NCBI GenBank assembly: GCA_015064585.1
Contig: SVRY01000006.1
Span: 1 to 64,000, forward strand
From: Oscillospiraceae bacterium
GTDB taxonomy: Bacteria > Bacillota > Clostridia > Oscillospirales > CAG-272
Reading direction: 5' to 3'
DNA: 64,000 nt
The translations under genes were made by a program, and so were the position numbers. Below the pieces are notes generated by a model, which worked only from the letters and a program-made list of their open reading frames with translations, had not been told where the DNA came from and ran no database searches. Positions 34,068 through 44,038 of the stretch are shown here, piece after piece. Each line of letters starts with the position of its first letter. The first letter of the stretch is position 1.

Positions 34068-34673
34068 ATGAAAAAAATACTGATACTATGCCTGGGGATC
34101 GTAATATTTTGTTCTGCTATCCTGTTTTTGCCCACTTCGTATGACAGAGCGATTTATGATAAGACCCTGAGATTGCATGTGCTTGCCAATTCGGATTCTG
34201 AAGAGGATCAAGAAAATAAGTTGGCAGTAAGAGATCGTGTTTTGGAGGTGTTGTCCGAACAAATGCAGGCGTGTACTTCCCGTAGCGAGGCAGAGGGGAT
34301 GCTTTTAGAAAAAGAAGAATTGTTGCTGTCAGAATGCAGCGAGGTGCTTTCGGAAAAAGGAAGCAGTCATTCGGTGGCACTGAAGATCACTGAAGAGTAC
34401 TATCCTACCAAGGAGTATGATGATATCGTATTGCCTGCAGGTCGGTATTTGTCCTTGCAGATTTGTATCGGAGAAGCGAAAGGCAGGAATTGGTGGTGTG
34501 TATTATATCCGCCGGTTTGCATGGGTGCTTGCTCGGCAAAAGAAAAATTACAGGGCGCGGGATTTGAGGAAGAACAAGTAAAACTGGTCAGCGAAGAAAA
34601 AGAGATTCGCTATGCTGTAAAATTCAAGATTTTAGAAACAGTTGGAAAATTTTTTGGCAGTTTGTTTGGATAA
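34068..34673 (+). CDS. spoIIR: Stage II sporulation protein R
   Basis: A secreted signalling protein made in the forespore that triggers processing of pro-sigma-E in the mother cell. It has 201 residues with an N-terminal signal or TM helix (1-22). The family core is LRLHVLANSDSEEDQENKLAVRDRVLE, then KITEEYYPTKEYDDIVLPAGRYLSLQI and AKGRNWWCVLYPPVC. Its presence argues that the organism forms endospores. AGAGGTG lies before the ATG; a terminator follows at 34712. Confidence 0.95.
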   Translation: MKKILILCLGIVIFCSAILFLPTSYDRAIYDKTLRLHVLANSDSEEDQENKLAVRDRVLEVLSEQMQACTSRSEAEGMLLEKEELLLSECSEVLSEKGSSHSVALKITEEYYPTKEYDDIVLPAGRYLSLQICIGEAKGRNWWCVLYPPVCMGACSAKEKLQGAGFEEEQVKLVSEEKEIRYAVKFKILETVGKFFGSLFG

Positions 34674-34843: not shown

Positions 34844-35215
34844 ATGGATAATTTTAATGTGTCGGTATTTGTCAAATGGATGACAATGCTTTTAACCCTT
34901 GCCGCACTGTTGTGGATCGGATGCGGTTGTGAAAAACAAAATGATAAATTCCCGGGCGGAGAAAACGGAAATGAGACGTTTTCTTTTTCCGGTGCGGAGC
35001 AGACAGAGGAAGAAGGCTTTGTTTTAAATACTGCCTCTTCTCGTATTCATGTGCCCGATTGCCCATATGCCGAGCGCACTGCCAAGGAAAATCGGCTATG
35101 GGTTTCCGATGTGAAACAAGCTTTGGCAGAGGGATATGATTTTTGTAAGCATTGTCTTGGGGAAAAGTCCGATGCAGATATAAAAAACGAGGAACAGCAG
35201 AATGCAAAACAGTAA
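34844..35215 (+). CDS. Small lipoprotein with cysteine-rich metal-binding-like end
   Basis: A 123-residue protein with a hydrophobic signal and lipobox LWIGC (modified cysteine about residue 27), then an acidic linker. A C-terminal motif reads SSRIHVPDCPYAERT, then GYDFCKHCLG. The spaced H, C and CxxC resemble the small 'xxHxxxC...CKxC' zinc-binding module seen in Ada-like and nuclease-associated proteins. The ATG at 34844 lies at the expected transcription start; an internal ATG at 34880 also lacks a Shine-Dalgarno sequence. It overlaps the next gene by 14 bases and leads the five-gene cluster. Confidence 0.7.
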   Translation: MDNFNVSVFVKWMTMLLTLAALLWIGCGCEKQNDKFPGGENGNETFSFSGAEQTEEEGFVLNTASSRIHVPDCPYAERTAKENRLWVSDVKQALAEGYDFCKHCLGEKSDADIKNEEQQNAKQ

Positions 35216-36626
35216 TAATAAGATGAAAATTAGCGTTTCCGGTATAAAACGTCTTTTGATTTGCGCGGTATCAGTGGTACTGCTTGCGGCATTGGTGATG
35301 GGTATTCTTGTGGCGATCAATGCATACCGCAATAGCGGTAAAGGCATTCGAAATGTGACTGTGTTGAAAAGCGAGCACTTTACGTTAACATTGCCTATGT
35401 ATACTTATTACTATCGTTCCATGGGTGAAGGCGCAGATTATGATCTGGTGGCAATGGCATTGTCAGAGCAAATGGCGCTGTATGAAGCGGCACTGGCTGA
35501 CAACAACAGTCTGTCGCAAGAACGGAAAACTGTGTTGGAAGCGCAACTGCAGTCTATTGAGGAGGCTGCTGAAGAAATGGAAGTTTCCTGTGATGAGTAT
35601 TTGGCAGTAACCTACGGAAGAGGTGTCAAAATCAGCGATATTCGTTCTTTGCTCACAATGACAGCGCTGGCTGATCAAAAATATGAAATGATTTGGGAAT
35701 CCATTGCGGTTTCGGAAAACGAAATGGCGGATTATTGTAAAGAGAATGAAGAGGCATTCCTGTATTGTGATTATTTATTCTATGTATTTTCTGTCCCGTT
35801 GACAAAAGATATGAACGAGGATGAGCAGGATCAGTTAATTGCACAATATGAAGCCTATGCCAATCGTTTGGCGGAAAGCAAGGATGTGCAGACATTCTTG
35901 GATATGGTGGTGGAATATGAGGAGCAGTTCGTCAAAGAAGAGGATGAAAATGCTTCTTTTACCGAAAATGACATTGCTTCTATCCGTAAGTCGGTAAAAT
36001 ATGAACGCATGCCCTACAGTGAATATACAGAGGGGAATGCAATTGTCAAAGAAATCAATCAGTGGCTGTATTCTACCGACCGCACTGTCGGCGATCATAT
36101 GGTCAATCCGTATACCAAGCCGGAGAATAATATTGCTACTTTTGGGGTGTATTATATGACCCGTCCACTGTATACCAATACGGATCTGACACACACCTTT
36201 TACGATATTCAGCTGCTGTTTTCCAAGTATACTGAGTCTGCAGCTGAATCGGGCATCAAGCAGGCAGAAGCGCTCTATAAAAAGAATCCCAATGAAACTA
36301 CTCTGCAAGAGCTTGCCAAACAGTATGGAGGCGGTCTTTGCCGGAATGTGGCGTGTACGAACGCTTTGGATGATGCGTTATATACCTGGTTGAAAGAAGA
36401 GCGCGCTTCAGGGGATGTTTTGGTATACAAGAGCTCAGACGGTTGGCACATGGCGTGCTATAAACAAGCAGGTATTCCCGAATGCTATGCGCAGGCAAAG
36501 GCAATTTTGGAAAAAGAAGCTTACGATGCGCAAATGGGAACCTATAGAAAGGCACATGCGGTAACTGTTACCCCGAACAGTTATTACGATCTGCCCGAAC
36601 TGAATTACGGTTGGCTGATGATTTGA
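35202..36626 (+). CDS. Membrane-anchored foldase-like (PPIase-like) protein
   Basis: A 474-residue protein with one N-terminal TM helix (about 15-40) and a large extracytoplasmic part. The helical N-domain (MALSEQMALYEAALADNN, coiled segments to about 210) and the late GGGLCRNVACTNALDDALYTWLKEERASGDV, then SSDGWHMACYKQAG, follow the layout of SurA/PrsA-type parvulin proteins. Similarity is weak, so catalytic activity is uncertain. GAGGAACAGCAGA precedes the ATG inside the lipoprotein gene. Its place beside wall hydrolases suggests a role in folding exported envelope proteins. Confidence 0.65.
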   Translation: MQNSNNKMKISVSGIKRLLICAVSVVLLAALVMGILVAINAYRNSGKGIRNVTVLKSEHFTLTLPMYTYYYRSMGEGADYDLVAMALSEQMALYEAALADNNSLSQERKTVLEAQLQSIEEAAEEMEVSCDEYLAVTYGRGVKISDIRSLLTMTALADQKYEMIWESIAVSENEMADYCKENEEAFLYCDYLFYVFSVPLTKDMNEDEQDQLIAQYEAYANRLAESKDVQTFLDMVVEYEEQFVKEEDENASFTENDIASIRKSVKYERMPYSEYTEGNAIVKEINQWLYSTDRTVGDHMVNPYTKPENNIATFGVYYMTRPLYTNTDLTHTFYDIQLLFSKYTESAAESGIKQAEALYKKNPNETTLQELAKQYGGGLCRNVACTNALDDALYTWLKEERASGDVLVYKSSDGWHMACYKQAGIPECYAQAKAILEKEAYDAQMGTYRKAHAVTVTPNSYYDLPELNYGWLMI

Positions 36627-36638
36627 TGAGGTTTGGAT

Positions 36639-37577
36639 ATGAATAGAATCCCGCAGAATGATCCCGGTTTTTTGGCATTTCAAAGAAAACTGAGATCTGA
36701 AAACAGAAAAAGACGGTGGAAACGTACAGCAGTTATTTCAGCGGTTGTGGTGCTTATTCTTGGATTGTTGGCAGGTGGAGTGATTTGGATTTACCGTTCT
36801 GCTGATATACCAAATGCAGAACCTAACGACGCTCCTTTGCATGAAACACCAAATGACACCCCCTCTCTTGAAACAGGCGATGGGGGAGATGAGAATAATC
36901 AACCTCCCAGCACGAGTACACCTTCCAATGATGATCCCGTGGATCCTCCGAATGATCGCGATGACGGCAAAACCGTTGTATATATAGATGCAGGACACGG
37001 GTTTGCCAATTCCTACGGTGTTGCGGACAAAGGTGCGGGTGACGGTACCCCCTATCACGAGCTGACAGGTAAGCATGAAAGCGATCTGAATCTGGATGTG
37101 GCTTTTAAGTTGAAAGAGCTGCTTTTGGAAAAGGGATATGAAGTAATCATGATGCGGGAAGGCGAGAGCGCCGAGCATGTAACGGTTAACGACCGTGTAA
37201 ACAGAGTAAACAATTCAATCGCTGATATTTTTGTTTCGATCCACGCGAACAGTAGTGATACGCCCACTGCTAGCGGTGCGCGCTTATATTATAGCACTCT
37301 GAATGTGGCTGCCATGAAATGTCAGAAATACGCAAGCGTTATGGCGGATGCTTTGAATGCCACCGAAGGAGCGTCACTGAAAAAGGTAAATGTGTTTACC
37401 GACAGACCGGACGTTGCTGTAATCAAAGGTATTAGAATTCCCACGGTTCTTGTTGAAACATGCTTTATGACCAGTGCAGAAGATGCTGCTTTGGCAGCGA
37501 CCGAGGAATGGACTGTGGCAATGGCCACAGGTATTTGTCTTGGTATTGAAAACTACTTGGCACAGACTGCCGGCTGA
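36639..37577 (+). CDS. N-acetylmuramoyl-L-alanine amidase, membrane-anchored
   Basis: A 312-residue amidase_3 protein that cleaves the lactyl-peptide bond of peptidoglycan. It has a basic cytoplasmic N-terminus, one TM helix (about 28-50), a Pro/Asn/Asp-rich linker, then the catalytic domain from VVYIDAGHGFANSYGV. Zinc ligands and the catalytic residue are visible in DAGHG, KHESDLNLDVA, VSIHANSS and TVLVETCFM. GAGG lies seven bases before the ATG at 36639. The catalytic domain is a close paralogue of the next gene's, so the pair looks like a tandem duplication. Confidence 0.92.
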   Translation: MNRIPQNDPGFLAFQRKLRSENRKRRWKRTAVISAVVVLILGLLAGGVIWIYRSADIPNAEPNDAPLHETPNDTPSLETGDGGDENNQPPSTSTPSNDDPVDPPNDRDDGKTVVYIDAGHGFANSYGVADKGAGDGTPYHELTGKHESDLNLDVAFKLKELLLEKGYEVIMMREGESAEHVTVNDRVNRVNNSIADIFVSIHANSSDTPTASGARLYYSTLNVAAMKCQKYASVMADALNATEGASLKKVNVFTDRPDVAVIKGIRIPTVLVETCFMTSAEDAALAATEEWTVAMATGICLGIENYLAQTAG

Positions 37578-37596: not shown

Positions 37597-38823
37597 ATGC
37601 AAAATAAAGTTAGATATCTTTCTCTTTTCTGTGTATTTTGTTTTATTATCAGTGCGGTTTTCATGCTTTCCGGATGCGGTTCCGGAAAAAATTCTGCGGC
37701 TGACGATAAAGTTATGTTTTCGGTTTTGCTGCGGGACAGCGAGAGAGGAACACATTATCAGTTTGATATTAAACGTTCGGAGTGCTCGGCTACACAAGCA
37801 TCTGTTTTGGACAGACTGGAAAATTCAGGTATGCGAATTGCGGTGTCTGTTTCGAAATCCCCCGACCAAATGACCGATAATGAGCGTCAAAAGCTGATTT
37901 CGGCAATTATTGAGGAATATCGAAGAATAGAAAACGAAGAAAATAAGAATAATGGAAGTACTGTTACACCGGAAGATCCCACTCCCGGTATGGATCCGAT
38001 GAAAGAGCCGGTTACACTCTCGTTGTCAGACGCGGAAAGCGGAGCGACCTATTCATTTACGTTTGACGCAAGCGAACTCAGCGATGAAGATAAGGCGTTG
38101 ATCACTGCGCAGATTGAAAGCGGAACGCTTATAATGGATATCCAAGAAGATCCTGCAGAGATGACCGAAATACAAAAGCAAGATTTGTTGGCAAAGATTA
38201 TTTCCATACTCAGTTATGTGCCGCCTGAGCCCATTGCAACGGTGCTGATCGATGCAGGCCATGGGTTTGCCAATTCGGAAGGCGTGATTGACAAAGGAAC
38301 CGGCCACGGATCTCCGTACTATGATTTAACAGGAAAGTATGAAAGCGATCTGAACCTTGCGATTGCATTGTGCTTGAAAGAAAAACTGATCGATGCGGGT
38401 TTTGCAGTGATTATGATCCGCGAAAGTGAGGTTTTTGAGACGCTGGGTATCAATGACCGTGTGCGCCGTATCAATGCACTTGGGGCGGATATTATGATTT
38501 CGGTACATGGAAATGCGGCAGGTGCTACCGCAAGCGGTGCTCGCGTATACTGGAACAGAAAGAACAGACATGCCGAAATATGTGAAGCATATGCCCAAAC
38601 AGTGACTGATGCCATTAACAGTGTGGAAGGAACCACTTTGGTGGAGGCAAAAATGTATGAAGGTGACTATGCAGTGGTGCGCGATGTACATATTCCGTCT
38701 GTTCTTGTGGAAACCTGTTTTTTGACCAACCAAGCAGATGCGCAAATGGCAAGCGATCCAATTTGGGTCGAACGTATGGCGGACGCTTTGTGTCTTGGCC
38801 TTCAAAATCAATACGCAAGTTGA
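37597..38823 (+). CDS. N-acetylmuramoyl-L-alanine amidase lipoprotein with two novel repeat modules
   Basis: A 408-residue lipoprotein (lipobox LSGC, C27). Two copies of an unrecognised ~75-residue module lie at residues 39-112 (RDSERGTHYQFDI...SPDQMTDNERQKL) and 138-210 (SDAESGATYSFTF...EDPAEMTEIQKQDLL). The amidase_3 domain follows from about 214: VLIDAGHGFANSEG, KYESDLNLAIAL, MISVHGNA, VLVETCF. The start at 37597 has AAGGAG five bases upstream; a longer frame lies inside the previous gene. The modules recur seven times in the neighbouring LCP protein, which links the two functionally. Confidence 0.9.
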   Translation: MQNKVRYLSLFCVFCFIISAVFMLSGCGSGKNSAADDKVMFSVLLRDSERGTHYQFDIKRSECSATQASVLDRLENSGMRIAVSVSKSPDQMTDNERQKLISAIIEEYRRIENEENKNNGSTVTPEDPTPGMDPMKEPVTLSLSDAESGATYSFTFDASELSDEDKALITAQIESGTLIMDIQEDPAEMTEIQKQDLLAKIISILSYVPPEPIATVLIDAGHGFANSEGVIDKGTGHGSPYYDLTGKYESDLNLAIALCLKEKLIDAGFAVIMIRESEVFETLGINDRVRRINALGADIMISVHGNAAGATASGARVYWNRKNRHAEICEAYAQTVTDAINSVEGTTLVEAKMYEGDYAVVRDVHIPSVLVETCFLTNQADAQMASDPIWVERMADALCLGLQNQYAS

Positions 38824-38842
38824 TGAGAAATGAGGTGTGCGT

Positions 38843-41722
38843 GTGAATCGCGAATTTGATGAACGTGATCCGGATAAAGAACCCGATGATCTGAATTTTG
38901 CAGAAGATGGATCCGAAAATGATAAAAATGAAAAAGAAAATGATGCCGAAGAAGAGCTCGGGTTTGAAATAACTGAGGTTGATGATGCGGAAATTGCACC
39001 GGTAATTGTTGATAATGATGCCAAAGAAGCTGAAGATTCCGCTTTGGATCAAGAACTGTTGGATGAACTTGTGATTGCAACACAACAGTCGGATAAGAAA
39101 AAACGAATCAAAAAGATTCTTTTGATCGTTGCAGCGGTATTGCTTGGCTTGGCATTGACGCTTGGTGGTGTAGGTGTTTTCTTGTTTTATCATTATTATA
39201 ACAAGATTGATTACCAAAAGCCGGAAGAGATTGATGCAAATGAGCGCGATATCAAACTTTTTGACAGCTTGACCGGGAGCAGATATACATTTACCATTGA
39301 CTTGATTGGATTGACCGATGAAGAAACTTTGTTGGTGGATATTTGGTATCTTTCCAATAAAGAATTGGTATTGGAAATCGGCAAAGATCCCGCAACGATG
39401 ACCGTTTTGGAAAAAGAAGCACTCAAAAAATTAATTCTGGAAGAATTGCGCAGATTACAGGTGCAGGTTGAGGTAAAACTGCCGGTAATTACTGTATACA
39501 ATACTGTGGATGGCAAGGAATATGCTATTGAGATATCGCGGGAATTATTACAAAACGCTTCGGACTATGCGGTAATACTGGAATATATCGCTTTGCATGG
39601 CGAGGAACAATTGCTGATTGCTTTTGAAGGTCAATTTAATACAATGACCGATGAACAAAAGACGGCATTGTACGCCAAGATTGCCGGTGAGATCCGTGAC
39701 AGACAGAAGATAAGATATCCGCTCAATTTGCAGGATGCGGTAAGCGGAAAACAATACGTGATGTATTTATATGAGGAAGAACTCAGCGAAGAACAGGCAA
39801 AACAGATCATGGCAATGACAGATGTACTGGTTTTGGATGATCTTTCTGTAGATCCTGCAGAGTTGGATGCTGAGGCGCGCTCTGCATTCATTGTAAAGAT
39901 TTTTGATAAGATTCAGGATGCGTCTATTGCTCGATATACGATTTTACTGCGCGATCCCGCTTCCGGAACGGTATATTCCTTTGTGCTTAAGCAAAACGAA
40001 CTGACAAATGTACAACTTGTGGAGATTGTAAAACAGATCCACCGCGGTATGCTGGATCTGCCCTTGTCCTCGGATCCCAATTTGTTGGATACCGAAGGTA
40101 AACAACAGGTTGTTCAGGATATATTGAAGGCAATCGAACTTCTGGAAAATCCTCCAAAGGTCTATCAGATTACAATTAAGGACCGTACAAGCGGGAAAAT
40201 GTATATTTTGTCGTTTGATGAAAATGAGGCGACTGATGATCAGTTAATTACGTTGCTTACCAAGATCAGTGAAGGGGCTGTAATACTGGTTCCTGTTTTG
40301 GGCGATCCCGCATTGATGAATGCGCAAGAAAAGAAGGCATTGATAGAAGAAACCGTCGCGGAGATCTTGAATCCTTCACGTGCGTTGTCTTTGATGGATC
40401 CCGCAACCAAGCAAACGTATACTTTGTATTTCAGAGATACCGATGTAAGTGCATCTCAGCTTAGTTATTTGGCAGCTCAGATGCAAACAGGAAAGCCTTT
40501 TGAGATAAATCTTTCTAAAGATCCTGCAAGCATGACTGCAAGTGAAAAGGCAGCTTTGTTGGAAGCGATTATAACAAAATTGCAGGCGCCTCCGGTGGTA
40601 GAGTATAAATTCCCTGTGCGTGACCCCGAAACCGGTACAGCGTATATTTTGGTGTTTACCAAAGATGAGATCGGTGATGAGTCTGTGTTTGGCTATTTGC
40701 TGGAACAGGCACAGAAGGGAACTGCGTTGGATGTGGCAGTTTCTATGGATCCTTCTAAAATGAGTGCGGAAGATCGCAAAGCATTGTTTGCGGCTGCCGT
40801 GGAAGCGATCAAAAATGTTGAAAACAATAATGAAGATCCCGAGTTACTGGAAAAACTGCTGGAACATCTAAACAGTATTGCGCAAAATCCCGTTCAGCAC
40901 ACCGAGAACATTTACAATGTACTGTTGGTTGGTACTGACGAACGCGAGAATTATACTGCGAAAAACTCGGATACCATGATTGTTGTGACGCTGAACTACA
41001 AAGATAAGACGATTACCCTGACTTCGCTGCTCAGAGATACTTGCGTAAAGTTCAAATATATGTCGGGTGGAAAAGAACGTGAAGTGGTTACACGTCTGAA
41101 CAGCGCATATGCAATTGGCGGTATCAAAACGCTTATTTCGGCGATTGAGTCAAATTACGGACTTAAGATCGATAACTATGTCAGTGTTAACTGGTTCTCT
41201 TTCCTGGATGTGTTTGAGGTGTTGGGCGGATTGGAGATCGATATTCCTCAGTCGGAAATTTCGAAGATCAATAAGGTAATTTCCTTACAAAGTCCCATTA
41301 CTATCGGTCATAACGGAAATGCGGATCTTATAATCAAGAGCGGTAAACAGATGCTGAATGCCAATCAAATCCTTGCGTATTGCCGTTACCGTGATACGCA
41401 GGCAGACTTTGCGCGTACGCAGCGTCAGCGCCAAGTGTTAAAACTGGTGTTTGAAAAATTTAAGGACAGTGACATCTTTACGATTAATGAGCTGTTGAAT
41501 AAGGTGCTTCCCTGCATTACCACCGACTTGACGGAAGGGAACTGCGCCGCACTGTTAAAGGATTTTTTGACGATCATCAATTGCAAGATGCAGGATCTTC
41601 GTTTGCCTGCATATCTGGAATACACGAGTAAAGACGGTATGCTTTGGCCTGATTGGGAAAAGACTTTGAAGAGAATGTACGGATTGGCGTACGGATCTCT
41701 TTGTCCCGAACAGTATAAATAA
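38843..41722 (+). CDS. LytR-CpsA-Psr (LCP) protein with seven tandem novel modules
   Basis: A 959-residue protein. A long acidic cytoplasmic N-terminus (1-84) and a TM helix (about 91-116) are followed by seven tandem modules of about 75 residues. The LCP domain runs from about 687: NIYNVLLVGTDEREN, NSDTMIVVTLN, LTSLLRDTCVKF, RLNSAYAIGG, and YCRYRDTQADFARTQRQRQVL, with the conserved Arg/Asp residues. LCP enzymes attach teichoic acids or other glycopolymers to peptidoglycan. The start is a GTG at 38843, seven bases after GAGG; GTG 38837 is too close. The stalk of repeats is unusual: most LCP proteins are 300-450 residues. Confidence 0.93.
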   Translation: MNREFDERDPDKEPDDLNFAEDGSENDKNEKENDAEEELGFEITEVDDAEIAPVIVDNDAKEAEDSALDQELLDELVIATQQSDKKKRIKKILLIVAAVLLGLALTLGGVGVFLFYHYYNKIDYQKPEEIDANERDIKLFDSLTGSRYTFTIDLIGLTDEETLLVDIWYLSNKELVLEIGKDPATMTVLEKEALKKLILEELRRLQVQVEVKLPVITVYNTVDGKEYAIEISRELLQNASDYAVILEYIALHGEEQLLIAFEGQFNTMTDEQKTALYAKIAGEIRDRQKIRYPLNLQDAVSGKQYVMYLYEEELSEEQAKQIMAMTDVLVLDDLSVDPAELDAEARSAFIVKIFDKIQDASIARYTILLRDPASGTVYSFVLKQNELTNVQLVEIVKQIHRGMLDLPLSSDPNLLDTEGKQQVVQDILKAIELLENPPKVYQITIKDRTSGKMYILSFDENEATDDQLITLLTKISEGAVILVPVLGDPALMNAQEKKALIEETVAEILNPSRALSLMDPATKQTYTLYFRDTDVSASQLSYLAAQMQTGKPFEINLSKDPASMTASEKAALLEAIITKLQAPPVVEYKFPVRDPETGTAYILVFTKDEIGDESVFGYLLEQAQKGTALDVAVSMDPSKMSAEDRKALFAAAVEAIKNVENNNEDPELLEKLLEHLNSIAQNPVQHTENIYNVLLVGTDERENYTAKNSDTMIVVTLNYKDKTITLTSLLRDTCVKFKYMSGGKEREVVTRLNSAYAIGGIKTLISAIESNYGLKIDNYVSVNWFSFLDVFEVLGGLEIDIPQSEISKINKVISLQSPITIGHNGNADLIIKSGKQMLNANQILAYCRYRDTQADFARTQRQRQVLKLVFEKFKDSDIFTINELLNKVLPCITTDLTEGNCAALLKDFLTIINCKMQDLRLPAYLEYTSKDGMLWPDWEKTLKRMYGLAYGSLCPEQYK
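39248..40825 (+). repeat. Seven tandem protein modules (coding repeats)
   Basis: Approximate module boundaries are 39248-39475, 39476-39706, 39707-39928, 39929-40156, 40157-40378, 40379-40594 and 40595-40825. Shared pattern: D-x-x-[ST]-G-x-x-Y near the start, then a helix containing L-[ST]-x-x-Q, then [SG]-x-D-P-x-x-M-[TS]-x-x-E-[KR], then a closing helix. Modules 1 and 4-7 are clearest; 2 and 3 are diverged. DNA identity between modules is low, so the duplications are old. Confidence 0.8.
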
Positions 41723-41741: not shown

Positions 41742-41779
41742 GGGAGTTGGCTGTAAAGTCAACTCCCGCGACTTTTTTT
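41742..41779 (+). terminator. Terminator after the LCP gene
   Basis: GGGAGTTG pairs with CAACTCCC around a ten-base loop; TTTTTTT follows. Confidence 0.75.
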
Positions 41780-41856: not shown

Positions 41857-41930
<74 letters not shown>

Positions 41931-41933
41931 AAT

Positions 41934-42010
41934 GTGCCCTTAGCTCAGTCGGATAGAGCAACTGCCTTCTAAGCAGTAGGTCGGGGGTTCGAATCCCTCA
42001 GGGCACGCCA
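41934..42010 (+). tRNA. tRNA-Arg (anticodon TCT)
   Basis: The acceptor arms GTGCCCT / AGGGCAC, the anticodon loop CTTCTAA with TCT and the T-arm GGGGGTTCGAATCCCTC are present. CCA is encoded. It starts three bases after the glycine tRNA. Confidence 0.96.
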
Positions 42011-42018
42011 TATAATAC

Positions 42019-42096
42019 GGTGGAATTAGCTCAGTTGGTTAGAGCGCCAGGTTGTGGCCCTGGAGGTCGTGGGTTCAACTCCCATATTTCACCCCA
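42019..42096 (+). tRNA. tRNA-His (anticodon GTG)
   Basis: The acceptor arms GTGGAAT / ATTTCAC carry an extra encoded 5' G (42019) opposite C73, the histidine identity feature. The anticodon loop TTGTGGC gives GTG, and CCA is encoded. Confidence 0.95.
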
Positions 42097-42559: not shown

Positions 42560-44038
42560 ATGGCGGACACAAGCATTTATCAAGATATTGCAAAGCGTAC
42601 GGGCGGAGATATTTATGTGGGAGTGGTTGGTCCTGTGAGAACAGGAAAATCCACACTGATCAAAAAGTTTATGGAGGGGCTGGTGCTGCCGGGGATTGCC
42701 GATGAATATGACCGCAAGCGGGCAAGGGATGAACTGCCGCAAAGTGCAGGCGGAAAGACAGTGATGACAACGGAGCCGAAATTTATTCCCGATGAGGCGG
42801 TGGCATTGACGCTGGACGATATGTCGGGGGTGAGGGTGCGTCTCATTGATTGCGTCGGATATGTTGTTCCCGATGCGCTGGGGCAAACCGAGAACGGTGA
42901 GCCGCGAATGGTGCACACCCCTTGGGATCAAGAACCCATTCCCTTTGTGGAAGCGGCAGAGATCGGTACGCGAAAGGTTATTACCGATCATGCTACTATC
43001 GGGTTGTTGGTTACCTGTGACGGCAGCATTTGCGAGATCCCAAGACACTCCTATGAAGAAGCGGAAGCGAGGGTGGCAAATGAATTAAAAGGATTGGGAA
43101 AACCGTTTGCCATTGTTTTGAATTCAGCACATCCCAATGCACCGGAAAGTATTGCGCTGGCAATGGAACTGGAAGAAAAATACGGCGCGCCTGTGGCGCT
43201 TGTCAACTGCACCGAACTCAATGGAGAGGATATACGTCACATATTGGGTATGATCCTATTGGAATTCCCTGTAAAAGAACTCAAGGTGGAACTGCCTGCT
43301 TTTACCTTGGCGTTGGAGGAAGATCATTGGTTGATGCAAAGCTTGCATGAAAGTATGATCAAATGCGCTTCGGAAATACATAAAATGGGGCAGGTTACGC
43401 ATGCGGTGGCGATGATGGGAGAGAATGATAGCGTAGGCAGTGTCAGACTGAAAACTTTGGATATGGGCAGCGGTATTTGCCGAGCGGAAATTCAGCCGAT
43501 TGCCGGATTGTATTACAGAGTGCTCAGTGAACTGACCGGTTTGCGCATTGACAGCGAAGAACAGCTGGTGTCCATGATGCGGGAATTGGCAAAGATCAAA
43601 GAAAAATACGATAGAGTGGATGAGGCACTGAAAAGCGTTGAAGAAAGAGGTTACGGTATTGTGATGCCTGATGTATCAGAGCTTCGGCTGGAGGACCCGA
43701 AAATTATGAAACAACCGGGAGGCTATGGCGTAAAATTGCGTGCTTCTGCTCCGTCTGTGCATATGATCAAAGCGGATATCGAGACAGAACTCAATCCCAT
43801 TGTGGGCAGTGAACAGCAATCGGAGGAATTGATTCGGTATTTGATGCGGGAATTTGAAAACGATCCCGCAAAGATATGGCAGACTAACATGTTTGGCACA
43901 ACACTATATGAATTGGTTAGTGAAGGTTTGCATTCCAAACTGCAAAATATGCCTGAGGACGCCAGAATAAAACTATCTGAAACACTCTCGCGTATCATAA
44001 ATGAGGGAACAAACGGGCTGGTATGCATTTTACTTTGA
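42560..44038 (+). CDS. spoIVA: Stage IV sporulation protein A
   Basis: A 492-residue ATPase that polymerises on the forespore surface as the base of the spore coat. The N-terminal domain has the Walker A GPVRTGKST (about residues 24-32), then KTVMTTEPKFIPDEAV, VRLIDCVGYVVPDA and TDHATIGLLVTCDGSI. The C-terminal localisation part ends TLSRIINEGTNGLVCILL, typical of SpoIVA. GGAGGTTGACGC lies before the ATG. A sigma-E promoter would be expected; ATA (near 42503) and CATAGCTT (near 42522) fit only loosely. Confidence 0.97.
   Translation: MADTSIYQDIAKRTGGDIYVGVVGPVRTGKSTLIKKFMEGLVLPGIADEYDRKRARDELPQSAGGKTVMTTEPKFIPDEAVALTLDDMSGVRVRLIDCVGYVVPDALGQTENGEPRMVHTPWDQEPIPFVEAAEIGTRKVITDHATIGLLVTCDGSICEIPRHSYEEAEARVANELKGLGKPFAIVLNSAHPNAPESIALAMELEEKYGAPVALVNCTELNGEDIRHILGMILLEFPVKELKVELPAFTLALEEDHWLMQSLHESMIKCASEIHKMGQVTHAVAMMGENDSVGSVRLKTLDMGSGICRAEIQPIAGLYYRVLSELTGLRIDSEEQLVSMMRELAKIKEKYDRVDEALKSVEERGYGIVMPDVSELRLEDPKIMKQPGGYGVKLRASAPSVHMIKADIETELNPIVGSEQQSEELIRYLMREFENDPAKIWQTNMFGTTLYELVSEGLHSKLQNMPEDARIKLSETLSRIINEGTNGLVCILL

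Follow-up and report, generated by a model that had tools for sequence, protein, structure and literature searches.

An apparently genus-restricted module of about 73 residues that lies between the membrane anchor and the enzyme domain of a wall amidase and of an LCP protein from an Oscillospiraceae bacterium

LCP enzymes use membrane-lipid-linked donors, the lipid of which occupies a hydrophobic pocket in the LCP domain, and LCP proteins may carry a non-conserved accessory domain between the transmembrane (TM) helix and the LCP domain (PMC7831098). PASTA domains, known from the ectodomains of StkP-type kinases, were shown to bind peptidoglycan fragments (PMC12077195). The space between membrane and wall, a disputed one, was given as 16-22 nm in S. 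aureus and B. subtilis (PMC8141598). Wall enzymes mounted on stalks are a known kind. The locus described here adds to them an apparently orphan module, representing an extracytoplasmic domain family without earlier description, and a stalk of seven to nine such modules on an LCP enzyme; no report of LCP proteins with repeat stalks was found among open-licence papers. The locus lies in the window, that is, the whole 64,000-nucleotide stretch of DNA analysed, which sits on contig 84 of a draft genome (2.39 Mb).

Between spoIIR (34068-34673) and spoIVA (42560-44038), the window contains two Amidase_3 genes (36633-37577 and 37597-38823) and one LCP gene (38837-41722), all on the forward strand and separated by gaps of 19 nt and 13 nt. 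The first gene encodes a paralogous membrane-anchored Amidase_3 protein (Pfam, 3.5e-36) that contains a low-complexity linker in the place of the modules. A candidate intrinsic terminator on the same strand (41742-41767; 11-pair stem followed by a T-run) lies directly 3' of the LCP gene, and came from a scan in which the count of such sites was not above chance. Genes for tRNA-Gly, tRNA-Arg and tRNA-His are present at 41857-42096, with the LCP gene on one side and spoIVA on the other. Upstream, a membrane-anchored protein of 474 aa (35202-36626), found in the same block in the sister species described below, appears foldase-like (PrsA/SurA-like) by eye, and a Pfam search with it returned nothing at E<=1. 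The small gene at 34844-35215, which also has a counterpart in the sister species, encodes a secreted or lipoprotein-like product with a Cys-containing motif resembling Ada-type metal-binding sites (sub-threshold Pfam match, 1.6e-3).

The product of the second gene, a lipoprotein amidase, has an LSGC lipobox, two modules and a C-terminal Amidase_3 domain at aa 216-404 (PF01520, 1.3e-35 in the Pfam search). Alignment to 4rn7 showed that its zinc-ligand and catalytic motifs GHG, YE, SVHGN and VETC are all intact, with the zinc ligands H/E/H and the catalytic E retained. The LCP protein (961 aa) consists of an acidic cytoplasmic tail, a TM helix at approximately aa 94-116 as judged from hydropathy, seven modules at approximately aa 136-663 as delimited by HMM, and a LytR_cpsA_psr domain at aa 710-876 (40964-41464, forward strand). 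This domain matches PF03816 over the cut-off (124.8 bits, 8.1e-35), and its closest solved relative in a PDB search is 3pe5 (4.6e-27), alignment with which revealed the Asp/Arg active-site motifs of the LCP class, SDTM, LRDT and RTQRQR. On the basis of domain and motifs, the protein is a putative glycopolymer transferase, with predicted ligase activity on lipid-linked polymer. The two proteins differ in anchor type: the amidase is held by a lipid and the LCP protein by a TM helix. In both proteins, and in both species compared, the module array is placed exactly between the membrane anchor and the catalytic domain.

The sequence-only reading of this DNA had described nine copies of one module in the neighbouring genes, and these were recovered at essentially the positions it gave. 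The modules, all on the forward strand and each of about 73 residues, are A1 (37714-37932; HMM, 98 bits) and A2 (38008-38220) in the amidase, and R1 (39242-39460), R2 (39482-39706), R3 (39713-39922), R4 (39932-40144), R5 (40160-40375), R6 (40379-40591) and R7 (40598-40822) in the LCP protein. HMMs built with one copy left out detected eight of the nine at 1.6e-9 to 6.7e-17 (A1, 1.2e-13; A2, 6.7e-17; R1, 1.6e-9; R3, 1.2e-9; R4, 1e-15; R5, 8.4e-15; R6 and R7 likewise), and R2, the most divergent copy, at 1.3e-3. The shuffle Z exceeded 3 in 32 of the 36 module pairs (median Z, 7.9; median identity, 26%). The nine modules are true homologues, far beyond chance. The signature proposed for them, D-x-x-[ST]-G-x-x-Y, stands as a consensus but not as an invariant pattern, because only six copies satisfy its literal form, the deviants being A1, R2 and R6. 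In an alignment of 20 copies drawn from the two species, conservation is highest at D (90%), Y (90%), DP (85%), an L of the final helix (85%) and the position five residues past the M of DPxxM, which is K/R (basic in 95%). Judged without coordinates, the conserved positions resemble turn, cap and core sites.

The module had also been called unrecognised, and the searches bear this out. Neither Pfam-A nor NCBIfam gave a model above its curated cut-off over the module region of the two full proteins, no Pfam family hit as many as two of the 20 copies (best E, 0.0056), and PASTA, SPOR, LysM, SH3 and other wall-binding families were absent among the Pfam matches of the full proteins and the copies. 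Against PDB sequences, the module profile gave a best E of 0.41, which is meaningless. AlphaFold2 predicted a confident fold for a single module, R6, from the 20-copy alignment (pLDDT, 91.7; pTM, 0.72): a beta-beta-alpha-beta-alpha arrangement with strands at residues 2-9 and 14-21, a helix at 27-39, a short strand near 43 and a helix at 56-71. Foldseek searches of PDB and BFVD with this model returned nothing at E<=0.001 (best E, 0.38), and the best Z from VIA was 2.6. HPV E7 CR3 and ubiquitin-like domains were considered as structural relatives, and both scored below any useful level. In a model of R5-R7, the three units fold alike (pLDDT, 89.5) and are joined by linkers of approximately 3-6 residues, with a dip in confidence at R6-R7; with a pTM of 0.61 from five sequences, the relative orientation of the units is uncertain. 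Structure searches with this triple were likewise without match. These models are consistent with a small fold that is new or rare, a structural non-match not by itself establishing a new fold.

Searches with the module profile covered relatives and samples of the family (395 genomes), order (394), class (391) and phylum (398), which overlap, and yielded no convincing copy outside the genus, within a sensitivity that very diverged copies may escape. Weak matches outside the genus that were inspected proved unrelated or partial. The best of the outside matches is a membrane-anchored Clostridia protein of 469 aa (genome G252, L084:748-2154, reverse strand; hairpin 'YAFLIRDTNTGKTYQFYVSD'), at an E of 3.4e-5 for one genome and covering no more than the leading two thirds of the module. 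It is without a Pfam match, and no second genome is available in its family for comparison. No module was found in plasmids by tblastn, and a contig scan with the LCP protein as query gave no match. A scan by SpoIVA recovered the sister species plus 36 further spoIVA loci; neither an LCP gene nor a module flanked any of the 36, a weak negative given that many of the loci have little sequence on one side. Two other LCP genes of the window genome (337- and 339-aa frames) are without the stalk; LCP frames in sampled relatives span approximately 260-560 aa, and the sister-genus LCP proteins sampled have no such stalk. The module appears to be an orphan restricted to one genus.

Of the genomes compared, the MAG 'Oscillospiraceae bacterium isolate SIG638' (contig SVRH01000090) is the closest relative, with a SpoIVA that is 86% identical. 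SIG638 has the same gene block, with the amidase gene (421-aa frame) again adjoining the LCP gene. The amidase contains two modules in either species, whereas the LCP protein contains seven in the window species and nine in SIG638. The SIG638 LCP gene runs across two contigs whose overlap is 126 exact bases. The nine-copy array was considered as an assembly artefact, a view set aside since the overlap, together with a single differing base close to the end of the contig, is what a k-mer junction would give; nine is the simplest count, with a collapsed repeat possible. By best pairwise score, the positional counterparts are A1-A1, A2-A2, R1-M1, R2-M2, R3-M3, R4-M4/M6, R5-M7, R6-M8 and R7-M9. 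Because the copies correspond by position, the array is older than the separation of the two species. Two modules may have been gained or lost near R4 after that separation, the copies being so short and diverged that their tree is weakly supported. At orthologous positions in these two known species, on which the comparison rests, the modules are 27-51% identical, whereas the LCP domain is 62% identical and the amidase domains 59% and 64%. The modules diverge faster than the enzymes that carry them.

A third Amidase_3 paralogue is encoded elsewhere in the window genome (G000:C46:25948-26595; L126:5949-8837, reverse strand; 963-aa frame) and in SIG638 (G001:C57, L127:2175-5465; 1097-aa frame). 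Between its TM helix and its Amidase_3 domain, the same place as that of the module arrays, it has a stalk of approximately 750-900 aa made of domains unrelated to the module: Ig-like domains, a stretch that is transglutaminase-like by eye, and InlB B-repeats, of which one species has two and the other four. The profile found no module copy in this paralogue or in the amidase at 36633-37577. A further open frame, at L028:9276-13869 and continuing beyond these positions, exceeds 1500 aa and is still open at the contig end; in it, InlB-type repeats precede a large number of near-identical Ig-like repeats.

What would such arrays do? In the simplest account, the genus mounts wall enzymes on interchangeable stalks of variable length, and the module is one stalk unit that was copied between neighbours. 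We infer a mechanical role, at about even confidence: the module would act as a semi-flexible extracytoplasmic spacer or tether between the anchor and a wall-active catalytic domain. Two modules would put the amidase a few nanometres off the membrane, and with seven to nine the LCP domain would be able to reach far, on a semi-flexible arm, across the membrane-wall space to peptidoglycan. At our estimate of approximately 3 nm per unit, seven units would measure approximately 20 nm, similar to the space given for S. aureus and B. subtilis. Sharing between the adjacent genes would have arisen via duplication or recombination between them. The change in copy number, the fast drift of the modules and the unrelated stalk of the third paralogue fit spacer use and local copying. 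Since the LCP donor is lipid-linked, a long rigid stalk would separate the LCP active site from its substrate. Short linkers that bend may return the LCP domain to the membrane for the polyprenyl-linked donor; a flexible tether, a flat-lying stalk or an unusual donor would each resolve the puzzle. A small point against the tether is that individually conserved array positions (A1-A1, R1-M1, R6-M8, R7-M9) exceed a little what a pure spacer needs, although such conservation also follows from simple descent.

Other readings of the arrays were weighed against the same data. Tandem copies on peptidoglycan-active enzymes typify wall-binding repeats, and the arrays, with their evolving copy number, fit that pattern: each module would have a weak affinity for peptidoglycan or a secondary polymer, and the avidity of tandem copies would hold both enzymes at the wall. 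However, the LCP stalk is strongly negative, with a net charge of -34 over 529 aa, and the 20-copy alignment, judged without coordinates, contains no conserved aromatic or cationic patch and no broadly basic signature beyond the one K/R position. The charge and the missing signature make simple attachment to an anionic wall less likely. In addition, the modules sit between anchor and enzyme rather than at a free end and show no similarity to known binding repeats in Pfam, and we consider wall binding rather unlikely. The possibility that the modules form a much enlarged version of the optional LCP accessory domain, acting on the LCP reaction, starts from the known position of that domain between TM helix and LCP domain. 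The presence of the module on an amidase counts against it; moreover, the Cps2A version is a single domain of approximately 100 residues, absent from the Foldseek matches listed for the module. Such substrate handling is very improbable.

The sequence-only reading took the sharing of the module by a hydrolase and an LCP protein as a pointer to a common extracytoplasmic partner, and listed a stalk among its options. This interpretation is partly supported: one unrecognised module is shared by the two proteins and a stalk fits, whereas the evidence does not bear out the step from sharing to a common partner, binding to which is possible. One form of it would have amidase modules pair with LCP modules, bringing hydrolysis and glycopolymer attachment to one site. 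The adjacency of the two genes in both species and the positional identity kept by every copy argue for such pairing, but only the LCP protein changes in copy number, the amidase being constant, and the two other amidases lack the module, leaving co-assembly unlikely. It is also conceivable, if improbable, that a new, genus-confined fold makes homotypic contacts that dock the wall amidase on the LCP stalk as one membrane-tethered machine, which would join peptidoglycan opening with glycopolymer attachment.

To return to the tether, the reason for a long one on a ligase with a membrane-bound substrate is a puzzle that would surprise specialists. Should the stalk prove extended, a hinge or some other route for the donor would have to be added to the usual view, which places LCP action at the membrane face with its lipid-linked donor. 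Two species with seven and nine modules on otherwise similar enzymes constitute a natural test of the distance from the membrane at which an LCP ligase can work.

How does the locus compare with known systems? As in LCP transferases such as pneumococcal Cps2A, the LCP protein has a TM anchor, an extracytoplasmic LCP domain and extra sequence between the two; unlike in these, the extra part is formed by seven to nine tandem modules (approximately 530 aa in the window protein), absent from the other LCP proteins sampled. The amidase shares a lipoprotein anchor, a modular N-terminus and a zinc amidase domain with intact motifs with Amidase_3 wall amidases that have N-terminal modular parts, but its module matches no described wall-binding repeat in Pfam and recurs in an LCP protein. 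PASTA ectodomains, comparable in how they may work only, likewise line up small extracytoplasmic modules in tandem on a protein that is anchored in the membrane and related to the wall, and have no sequence match to the module. The stalk of the third amidase paralogue is built of unrelated domains, yet it corresponds to the module arrays in placement and in a copy number that varies between species.
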